From NCBI GenBank assembly GCA_028282565.1, contig JANQHS010000172.1, positions 1 to 47,933 of the forward strand: 47,933 nucleotides of DNA, read 5' to 3'. Below the pieces are notes generated by a model, which had not been told where the DNA came from, made no database searches, and worked only from the letters and a program-made list of their open reading frames with translations. The number at the start of each line of letters is the position of its first letter. Position 1 is the first letter of the stretch. Below are positions 40,505-42,584 of this stretch, one piece after another. Position numbers and translations under genes: made by a program. The stretch comes from Cytophagales bacterium. GTDB lineage: Bacteria > Bacteroidota > Bacteroidia > Cytophagales > CCMP332.

Positions 40505-40534
40505 TGCATCCATTTTTGATTTGACGCGTCTATA
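40505..40534 (+). promoter_or_regulatory. ECF-type promoter of the sigma factor gene (TGCATCC-N15-CGTCTATA)
   Basis: TGCATCC (40505-40511) and CGTCTATA (40527-40534) are 15 bp apart. The same two blocks with the same spacing recur before the small peptide gene at 41141. CGTC at the -10 position is typical of ECF promoters. With ATG at 40541 the transcript would be leaderless or nearly so. Confidence 0.65.
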
Positions 40535-40540
40535 CCCGAA

Positions 40541-41086
40541 ATGAACAGCAAGATAAATACAGAGAAGATCTGGGATCAGTTTTCAGATCAACTCAAGCCT
40601 TTCATTCTAAAGCGGGTGAAGGATCGGGAAATTTCAGACGACATTCTGCAGGATACCTTTATCAAGGTTCACCAAAAAATTGACTCCCTAAGGGATGTAG
40701 ACAAAATAGGATCATGGGTTTTTAGCATAGCGAGAAATACCATAAACGACCATTTCCGTAAGAAGCCGAACCACGAATACGGAGAACAGGATTTCGTGAA
40801 TGAAAGCGATGAAGGGCTTAGCCCACTGGGTTTTGAGGAATGCCTTATTCCATTCATAAACTGCCTGCCACCCATTTACAAGGAAGCCCTGGAAATAACA
40901 GAACTTCAGGGCTTTAGTCAGAAAGAATACGCCGAGATGGTTGGCATCAGTTATCCCGGGGCAAAATCCAGGGTTCAAAGGGCGAAAGCAGAGTTGAAAA
41001 AACTATTTGTCCAATGCTGTAATCCAAAAGCGGATGCTTATGGGAATATTGTTCAAAAAGATGAGGTTGAGGGATGCCCTTGCTAA
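40541..41086 (+). CDS. sigZ: SigZ-type ECF sigma factor with Cys-rich C-terminal tail
   Basis: Alternative sigma-70 factor of 181 residues. Region 2 is at about 8-70 (FILKRVKDREISDDILQDTFIKVHQKIDSLRDVDKIGSWVFSIARNTINDHFRK). Region 4 is at about 105-155 (LPPIYKEALEITELQGFSQKEYAEMVGISYPGAKSRVQRAKAELKKLF). After region 4 comes a tail of about 24 residues with two cysteine pairs, QCC near 159-160 and ending in CPC at 179-181. No anti-sigma gene is adjacent, so the tail could itself sense metal or redox state; this is inference. The gene has its own promoter, shared in sequence with the downstream Cys-rich peptide gene, implying autoregulation. Confidence 0.88.
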   Translation: MNSKINTEKIWDQFSDQLKPFILKRVKDREISDDILQDTFIKVHQKIDSLRDVDKIGSWVFSIARNTINDHFRKKPNHEYGEQDFVNESDEGLSPLGFEECLIPFINCLPPIYKEALEITELQGFSQKEYAEMVGISYPGAKSRVQRAKAELKKLFVQCCNPKADAYGNIVQKDEVEGCPC

Positions 41087-41088
41087 TC

Positions 41089-41118
41089 TGCATCCTTTTT
41101 AATGCCCGCACGTCTATA
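41089..41118 (+). promoter_or_regulatory. ECF-type promoter of the Cys-rich peptide gene (TGCATCC-N15-CGTCTATA)
   Basis: TGCATCC (41089-41095) and CGTCTATA (41111-41118), 15 bp apart, repeat the sigZ promoter exactly in both blocks and spacing. It begins 3 bp after the sigZ stop and leaves 22 bp before ATG 41141. It therefore predicts a separate short SigZ-driven transcript ending at the terminator at 41207. Confidence 0.65.
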
Positions 41119-41140: not shown

Positions 41141-41200
41141 ATGAACAGAAAAGATGAATGTTGCGGTGGTGGCTGCTGTGGTGGCTGTTGCAACGATTAA
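41141..41200 (+). CDS. 19-residue Cys/Gly-rich micropeptide, putative SigZ target
   Basis: The open frame encodes MNRKDECCGGGCCGGCCND: six cysteines in three pairs separated by glycines, with charged ends. It starts at ATG 41141, 22 bp after a copy of the sigZ promoter, and ends 6 bp before an intrinsic terminator, so promoter, frame and terminator form a complete minimal gene. Paired cysteines on a glycine backbone suggest a metal-thiolate or redox-active peptide, or a substrate for modification; nothing in the sequence decides between them. It has no clear Shine-Dalgarno sequence, as usual here. Its first codons (ATGAACAG) match those of sigZ, so a duplicated leader is possible. Translation is unproven. 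Confidence 0.6.
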   Translation: MNRKDECCGGGCCGGCCND

Positions 41201-41206
41201 GGCAGG

Positions 41207-41235
41207 TCCCGGGGTTAAGAATCCCGGGATTTTTA
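41207..41235 (+). terminator. Intrinsic terminator after the Cys-rich peptide gene
   Basis: TCCCGGG (41207-41213) pairs with CCCGGGA (41223-41229) around a 9-base loop, followed by a T-rich run that reaches the stop codon (41233-41235) of the convergent outer-membrane gene. Confidence 0.8.
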
Positions 41236-42576
41236 TTTTATCCCAAAGGACGCTCCCATATAGAAGTTCAGATAGCTGGCATCACTGTTATCAGCAAGGG
41301 ATGAAAAAATATTGGCAGAACCTATGAAGTAAGTCTTATAGCTGAACGCAAATCCCGCTGTGTTTCGAATACCTCTACGAATATTAACCGGCAAATAGAA
41401 TCCGAATTTTTGGTTTTCAAATCTGGGCGTCAATGTGATACTGTAAAAGCTGTTGAAGGCATCCAGTTCTTCATAATTGGATAATACCGTAGAACCCTGA
41501 ACATTGAAATAGAAATCCTTGTAAACCTTTACGTCTGCTTGAAACCCAAATCTGGTGGGCAAACTGATGGTATAGTTTTCGGCCTGCGGAATCGATTGCT
41601 CAAAAGCCTGTAATGAATCAACGATCTGATCTATACCGCTTATCGTGCCGAGGACTTTCCACACGATGGTCCTGTCATCAAAATCAAATTCCGTACTGTT
41701 GTTTGAAGGTGTATACCTGACCTGGCCGAGATCGGTCAGCGCTACACCAACGTCAAAGAGGTAATCTCCGTTTTCAGCATCTTCGGGATCTCTGAAATAG
41801 GAATATCTGGCGCCAAGGTCAATGCCAAGGCCAAAATTTCTGAAGAGGTCAAACTTTAAGGGCTCTCCTTCCAAAAATTGTGATAGGCCGTCATTGTAGA
41901 TAAATGAAAGTCCCCCATCCAGAATAATGGTATCGCCTCCCAACTGTCGTACCTGAAGCTCTCTCAGCTCAACAGAGCCCGAAGAACTTCCGGAGATCAA
42001 TTTGAGACTTCCGCCAATTTGAATACGGTGTTTTTTATCGTTATAGATCTCATAGGAGACCGGGAAAGCAAAGGAGATCCAATTGTGCATGAGAATAAAG
42101 GCAAACTCTGAGCTGCCCCCAAAGGAAATGGGTTCGTCCGTATCTCCATTGGCAAGATTCTCAACAAACGTGAGCACCTTGGGCCTGGTATAGCGGCCAA
42201 GTCCTATGCTGCGGAAGCTCGGGGCAAACCCAACCGCCAACCGGTCTGTCGGCTTATAGACCAATCCGGGCAGGACCAGGTTTGCATAAAACCCGGCCGA
42301 AGCGTTTTCAAGTCTGGACAATTGAAAGATATTTCTTCCGAATACAGCATCGGAGGCAGCACTTGCAGACGCTTCCTCCAAACCACCAACCAGGTTTGCA
42401 TTCACACCAAGCACATTGATATTCCACCTTTTCTCCATATCAAGAATCCTTGTTGGCTGTATCGCTAAAGCATAAAAACCCGCTCTTTTGGAGGTATTGT
42501 ACCCTTTAAAACCTTGCGAGAACACATCAGTACCAGTAGCGATCAAAAAAAGGGCTAAAAAGAAAAGAGGACGCAT
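41233..42576 (-). CDS. DUF5723-like outer-membrane barrel protein
   Basis: 447 residues from ATG 42576 (a TTG one codon earlier is the only alternative). The signal peptide is MRPLFFLALFLIATGTDVFSQ. The N-terminal mature part (GFKGYNTSKRAGFYALAIQPTRILDMEKRWNINVLGVNANLVGG) matches the pattern I associate with DUF5723, where an FxLNPA-like segment opens a FadL/PorV-like barrel. Later regions repeat beta-hairpins ending in aromatics, down to FYMGASFGIK. Function unknown. It is divergent from the porin gene with only 39 bp between start codons and a one-mismatch -7 box (GATATTTG, 42599-42606). Confidence 0.75.
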   Translation of the reverse strand: MRPLFFLALFLIATGTDVFSQGFKGYNTSKRAGFYALAIQPTRILDMEKRWNINVLGVNANLVGGLEEASASAASDAVFGRNIFQLSRLENASAGFYANLVLPGLVYKPTDRLAVGFAPSFRSIGLGRYTRPKVLTFVENLANGDTDEPISFGGSSEFAFILMHNWISFAFPVSYEIYNDKKHRIQIGGSLKLISGSSSGSVELRELQVRQLGGDTIILDGGLSFIYNDGLSQFLEGEPLKFDLFRNFGLGIDLGARYSYFRDPEDAENGDYLFDVGVALTDLGQVRYTPSNNSTEFDFDDRTIVWKVLGTISGIDQIVDSLQAFEQSIPQAENYTISLPTRFGFQADVKVYKDFYFNVQGSTVLSNYEELDAFNSFYSITLTPRFENQKFGFYLPVNIRRGIRNTAGFAFSYKTYFIGSANIFSSLADNSDASYLNFYMGASFGIK

Positions 42577-42584
42577 CAAGAATT

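Follow-up and report, generated by a model that had tools for sequence, protein, structure and literature searches.

Sequence evidence strongly supports a genuine gene for the 19-residue cysteine- and glycine-rich peptide encoded at positions 41141 to 41200 of the window (the whole 47,933-nucleotide stretch of DNA that was analyzed), and the neighboring sigma factor SigZ apparently turns it on. The pairing of a shared promoter with a Cys-rich peptide recurs phylum-wide in Bacteroidota, with largely unrelated peptides in different lineages, and its occurrence beside arsenic-detoxification genes points to an undescribed toxic metal/metalloid trapping system.

Results

The open reading frame at 41141 to 41200 on the plus strand, ATGAACAGAAAAGATGAATGTTGCGGTGGTGGCTGCTGTGGTGGCTGTTGCAACGATTAA, translates to MNRKDECCGGGCCGGCCND, a peptide of 19 residues with six cysteines (32%) and without phenylalanine, tryptophan, tyrosine or histidine. 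An earlier note, made from the letters of this DNA alone, had counted six cysteines in three CC pairs, and a direct reading of the frame gives the same arrangement. It had also placed a promoter 22 bp upstream, which is where we find it: the putative SigZ-type promoter of the micropeptide, TGCATCC-N15-CGTCTATA, lies at 41089 to 41118 on the plus strand, its CGTCTATA element ending at 41118, 22 bp before the ATG. The terminator claimed in the same note is likewise present, although not 6 bp downstream as stated. The predicted intrinsic terminator of the micropeptide transcript (41204 to 41232, plus strand), a hairpin of 13 pairs followed by a T tract, begins 3 bp past the stop codon. Its calculated folding energy is -18.5 kcal/mol (z -2.1) and it is the sole terminator-like site between 40400 and 41300. 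Directly downstream follows a convergent gene of the DUF5723 family (41233 to 42579, minus strand). Rfam and tRNA scans of the window returned no matches.

An identical copy of the promoter, with the same two elements and spacing, is found before sigZ at 40505 to 40534 on the plus strand. The designation "SigZ-type promoter" in the earlier note thus holds up, given this second copy with the same 15-bp spacing. In the 3.29-Mb, 472-contig genome, TGCATCC-N15-CGTCTATA has two exact matches, one before sigZ and one before the micropeptide. A search allowing up to two mismatches yielded one third site, with two mismatches, and the backwards control gave one match. Shuffling the window produced 0.8 matches at up to three mismatches, compared with the two exact sites actually present. 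A simple sigma-70 scan did not detect the micropeptide promoter, as expected for an ECF site. Since there are only two exact sites, the micropeptide would be the sole SigZ-driven gene besides sigZ itself, as far as the motif tells. A GGATGC...GCATCC inverted repeat spanning the sigZ stop codon (41072 to 41095, plus strand) and followed by five T residues was read directly from the sequence and is absent from some relatives; it may serve as the terminator of sigZ. The -35 element from which the micropeptide would be transcribed falls within this repeat and its T tract (41072 to 41100).

The coding status of 41141 to 41200 is strongly supported by comparison with a sister genome of the same genus (G002), whose SigZ is 62% identical. 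There, 57 bp past the aligned end of sigZ, a peptide MKRRDNCCGGGCCGGCCGD is encoded, followed by a terminator with altered bases in both arms that still pair, after which the convergent gene recurs. The 11-codon core CCGGGCCGGCC differs between the window and G002 at six bases, every one of them synonymous. Random placement of the differences gave an all-synonymous core in 12 of 200,000 trials, a figure that applies to a core picked by inspection, a simple mutation model and one genome pair. For the whole micropeptide frame, pN/pS was 0.21, and other homologous SigZ-linked peptide pairs with synonymous change showed values of 0.10 to 0.37. The earlier note had held that an unconserved frame, or equal change at synonymous and nonsynonymous sites, would speak against a gene; the frame is instead conserved and its change synonymous. 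The exact DNA pattern of CCGGGCCGGCC occurred in the window alone among 395 class genomes, so the 19-residue sequence, known from two genomes in a single genus, is on this evidence restricted to that genus. Among GTDB contigs searched with the SigZ protein, the one informative locus was again that of G002. In this sister genome the sigZ frame continues through the promoter of the peptide, and the last of the conserved cysteines is missing (L002, 2020 to 2070).

The promoter was followed across the phylum in a sample of 82 SigZ loci from 32 families, 21 from a phylum-wide draw. The consensus read from their upstream regions, TGCRTCYTTTT-N9-11-CGTCTA, stands before sigZ, a small Cys-rich ORF or both, or before an ArsM or ArsI gene. 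At up to two mismatches, 78 sites were located near sigZ and one far from it (61 loci, up to 16 kb each). Exact sites in 56 sigZ-positive genomes fell at sigZ in 32 of 33 cases, and 56 sigZ-negative genomes held two sites and seven control matches. A promoter common to sigZ and the micropeptide, and nearly exclusive to sigZ loci, is strongly supported by these sequence counts, and the co-occurrence suggests that SigZ recognizes it.

Cys-rich small ORFs start within 130 bp of a SigZ-type site at 38 of the 82 loci, representing 17 families (up to three mismatches). With a stricter limit of two mismatches, a site accompanied 35 of 39 Cys-ORF loci, and column-permuted motifs gave 0 in each of 25 controls. 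Cys-dense ORFs were defined as having at least 5 Cys and at least 22% Cys; these thresholds were fixed after the first examples, a point which the controls address. In the first 60 loci, the 119 kb within 1 kb of sigZ contained 29 such ORFs and the 573 kb beyond 2.5 kb contained 5, an enrichment near sigZ of about 28- to 37-fold. The surroundings of 28 ECF sigma factors other than SigZ (93 kb), taken as a control, showed no convincing Cys ORF. The peptides are unrelated between families (for example MNHEPTDCCDGTCCDGNTSGCC, MENNCCGSTCCCCGTSGSGCC, MNQSCCNENCNCNCGCNCKCSCNCECCKGKCC and MTYKGECTCNCDGCKTGSCTNCTCENCTCSNCNC), with arrays of up to 128 residues. They are placed 3' of sigZ with their own promoter copy, 5' of it in an apparent sigZ cotranscript, or on the opposite strand. 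For ten sister peptides neither Pfam nor NCBIfam gave a match to metallothioneins or any other Cys-peptide family, in a search whose minimum of 20 residues lies above the 19 of the window's peptide, and the 128-residue sister peptide gave repeat-type matches only. On a tree of the 82 SigZ proteins the presence of a Cys peptide requires 8 changes, of which well-supported branches force 3 or more, and therefore several gains or losses, with the deep forks of the tree left open; because the loci are related, locus counts are not independent events. Further small convergent ORFs, MKNVIIQKDGGCCGGLCDC and MKTHSIDGDGCGGGGCC, lie just after sigZ on the other strand in L075/L076 (G020 and G077) and L095 (G234), with weaker promoter matches of three mismatches. 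In G020 and G077 an exact promoter also precedes an exported protein of 315 to 333 residues, and selD/selU-like genes lie upstream of sigZ.

A SigZ-type promoter is instead followed first by a gene for arsenite methyltransferase (ArsM) or ArsI/CadI at 15 of the 82 loci. All seven ArsM proteins tested scored above the NF008823 cut-off, one being encoded by the second gene after a deacetylase, and all six ArsI/CadI proteins tested scored above that of NF041414. In the tally of 82 loci, we saw no locus with both a peptide and an enzyme under SigZ promoters. Other SigZ-type sites precede genes for PatB C-S lyase (above cut-off) as well as BshB-like PIG-L deacetylases and flavin monooxygenases (below cut-off), and ArsR-, ArsC-, Acr3- and aquaporin-like genes adjoin sigZ in several genomes, as read by eye. 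Based on these sequence assignments, Cys-rich small ORFs or arsenic-detoxification genes are the usual outputs of the SigZ-type promoter phylum-wide. The window's own SigZ unit is without an arsenic gene, and at the ArsM gene found elsewhere in its genome (G000:C249, contig edge) there is no exact SigZ-type site.

Two side observations concern the proteins encoded at SigZ loci. In L073 (G012) a third exact SigZ-type promoter is located at about +3530 from the end of sigZ, downstream of arsM and PatB-like genes, where it adjoins genes for a Cys-tailed, membrane-anchored protein of 224 residues and a CcdA-like transporter. Enzymes and regulators at SigZ loci also frequently terminate in Cys-pair tails, as in PatB (..NSCCSC), ArsM (..SSCCN), ArsI (..QAACC), DUF6428-like (..GGKCC) and ArsR (..NKCC) proteins (L071, L133/L134, L078, L191/L194, L138 and L147). 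CC pairs thus occur both as free micropeptides and as tails on enzymes and regulators.

The sigma factor itself is encoded by sigZ at 40541 to 41086 on the plus strand (181 residues). It matches TIGR02959 over its full length with 173.2 bits, above the curated cut-off of 168.65, contains Pfam sigma-70 regions 2 and 4, and scores 187.6 bits against a second NCBIfam model for SigZ, NF007215 (PRK09637), under the curated cut-off of 212. SigZ was equated with group ECF238 in 2022 (PMC9239204), the group that also holds the CorE-like factors of Myxococcus (PMC9239204, PMC8999054). The activating metals of CorE and CorE2 are Cu(II) or Cd(II)/Zn(II), which act via a Cys-rich tail and a CXC motif in the linker (PMC8999054, PMC9023288), this linker CXC being described as conserved in the former ECF44 only (PMC8999054). 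In the window, Cys101 (codon 40841 to 40843) lies in the linker that joins region 2 to region 4 and is a cysteine in 82% of 61 SigZ proteins. The Cys159-Cys160 pair directly after region 4 (41015 to 41020) is conserved in 93% at each position, and Cys179 and Cys181 of the tail Cys-Pro-Cys (41075 to 41083) in 95% and 75%, respectively. Of the two CorE-like features, the window's SigZ therefore has the Cys-rich C-terminal extension after region 4, and in the linker the single Cys101 in place of CXC. An AlphaFold2 model of SigZ, built from two sequences, reached a mean pLDDT of 66.9, with fair values for the sigma regions and values below 50 for the tail; clustering of the cysteines is not visible in it. 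Given the low tail confidence, we make no claim about a metal site in SigZ.

Discussion

We propose, with moderate confidence, that SigZ and the peptide form an autoregulated unit for sensing metals or metalloids and trapping them with thiols. The trigger would be a thiophilic metal or metalloid, in all likelihood trivalent arsenic or else a soft metal such as Cd, Zn, Hg or Cu, which would bind the linker and tail cysteines of SigZ and activate it. Active SigZ would then transcribe its own gene and, from the identical second promoter, a monocistronic message for the 19-residue Cys/Gly peptide. With its six cysteines this product would bind the metal(loid), acting as a minimal metallothionein-like (phytochelatin-like) trap, and the resulting drop in free toxicant would return SigZ to its inactive state. 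Our grounds for inferring the inducer, the feedback and a metal-binding role of the peptide are the arsenic genes under the promoter, the CorE relatives and the peptide's composition. The earlier note had suggested a direct SigZ output in a metal/redox response. Its thiol micropeptide gene and SigZ-type promoter are borne out by our analysis, and its metal side is supported indirectly by the ArsM and ArsI/CadI promoters and the CorE-like group. Where it left the choice between metal-thiolate peptide, redox buffer and precursor open, the comparative evidence favors a metal(loid)-thiolate, short of proof.

The main rival is a redox buffer, in which cells under disulfide or electrophile stress make the peptide as a store of thiols and the SigZ cysteines sense oxidation rather than metal. 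CC pairs can make disulfides, and some SigZ loci carry thiol-linked genes, namely a thioredoxin-like gene (TIGR00412, below cut-off) besides the PatB lyase and BshB-like deacetylase. However, the above-cut-off enzymes under SigZ-type promoters belong mainly to arsenic and heavy-metal handling (ArsM, ArsI/CadI), no recurring peroxide or thiol-reductase gene was seen in SigZ loci, and the characterized CorE-like members are metal sensors (PMC8999054). We therefore regard a redox buffer as unlikely.

More doubtful still is a micro anti-sigma factor that binds SigZ or strips it of its metal, which would make detoxification secondary. The restriction of the exact promoter to sigZ and the peptide in the window's genome would fit such a role, as would the lack of an evident anti-sigma gene adjoining sigZ and a pairing that persists despite unrelated peptides between lineages. 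The same unrelatedness speaks against a specific protein contact, however, and some peptides are metallothionein-like arrays of 89 to 128 residues, or are doubled (G209), which fits capacity and not regulation.

We attach very little probability to the peptide being a precursor of a modified natural product (RiPP) or metallophore. In favor are its small size, its richness in Cys and Gly, a constant core behind an N-terminus that varies, and a gene for a CPBP-family protease upstream of it in the window, but inspection of the 82 loci by eye revealed no recurring maturase, lanthionine synthetase or exporter beside the ORFs, and most SigZ loci are without a CPBP-like neighbor. An attenuation leader, whose Cys codons sense cysteinyl-tRNA and whose product is non-functional, strikes us as similarly far-fetched. 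Such a leader would be a short Cys-rich ORF with a terminator immediately after it, as here, and in several families the peptide-hairpin unit even sits between promoter and sigZ. The next gene in the window is convergent, though, so there is nothing downstream to attenuate, and it is also on the opposite strand in many loci with a downstream peptide; moreover, glycine is kept alongside cysteine and versions of 41 to 128 residues occur. That the frame is no gene at all, a chance ORF in a non-coding or small-RNA transcript, would suit its very short length and its omission by annotation tools, but is barely credible: the core has changed only at synonymous sites, the frame has a promoter and a terminator to itself, and Cys-rich ORFs recur at this position in 17 families. 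In this respect the real, separately transcribed gene of the earlier note is upheld, on the strength of those signals and of its conservation.

Beyond the window, the metal(loid)-trapping reading extends to phylum-wide SigZ/micropeptide pairs in which promoter, position and Cys density would be under selection and the peptides themselves (19 to 130 residues), as the main output of a highly specific SigZ promoter, would be lineage-specific and turn over fast. These would be ribosomal counterparts of phytochelatins, with enzymes that methylate arsenic or cleave C-As bonds replacing the peptide at the promoter in other lineages. We give this broader proposal an even chance. What the loci do expose is a recurrent family of unannotated Cys-rich micropeptides, which sequence-family searches miss because the sequences turn over, with promoter, position and Cys content persisting. 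SigZ is widespread, and the locus supplies a defined promoter, defined outputs and a testable inducer class. If binding of As(III) or soft metals proves true, the peptide would be among the smallest gene-encoded metal traps, useful for biosensors and for understanding how a phylum of major importance in the environment and the gut deals with arsenic. In the open-access literature we found no report of the SigZ/peptide pairing, the promoter or the peptides, with an earlier mention of parts possible in subscription papers, including the ECF re-classification, which lie outside this scope; nor did we find there a description of what SigZ responds to, or which genes it controls, in Bacteroidota. 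Sigma factors of ECF238 that sense metals are already known, as are metallothioneins, and there is a real chance that this peptide class deserves a name of its own.

Among known systems, CorE and CorE2 of Myxococcus xanthus (former ECF44, now ECF238) resemble SigZ in their group, a linker cysteine and a Cys-rich C-terminus. They differ from it in carrying CXC in the linker, where SigZ has one cysteine, and in a tail of CC-x3-C-x2-C-x-C (PMC9023288) compared with CC-x18-CxC in SigZ. The targets of CorE include copper-handling genes, e.g. a P1B-type ATPase (PMC3107203), whereas the window's SigZ appears to drive a 19-residue peptide. Arsenic-detoxification operons (ArsM, ArsI/CadI, Acr3, ArsC) are linked to the system through related loci with SigZ-type promoters before ArsM or ArsI/CadI; in contrast to these operons, the window's output would be the peptide alone, under a sigma factor rather than ArsR.

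In case of the metallothioneins, both the bacterial SmtA/BmtA type and those of plants and yeast comprise about 50 to 60 residues. The micropeptide shares their very high cysteine content (6 of 19), their lack of aromatic residues and histidine and the metal-stress context, but has only 19 residues and is apparently controlled by an ECF sigma factor and not by an SmtB/ArsR repressor. The size of a short Cys/Gly peptide suits the binding of As(III) or Cd, as in phytochelatins. These are likewise short Cys/Gly peptides, yet are made enzymatically as (gamma-Glu-Cys)n-Gly, whereas the micropeptide would be gene-encoded and ribosomal, with its cysteines in CC pairs.
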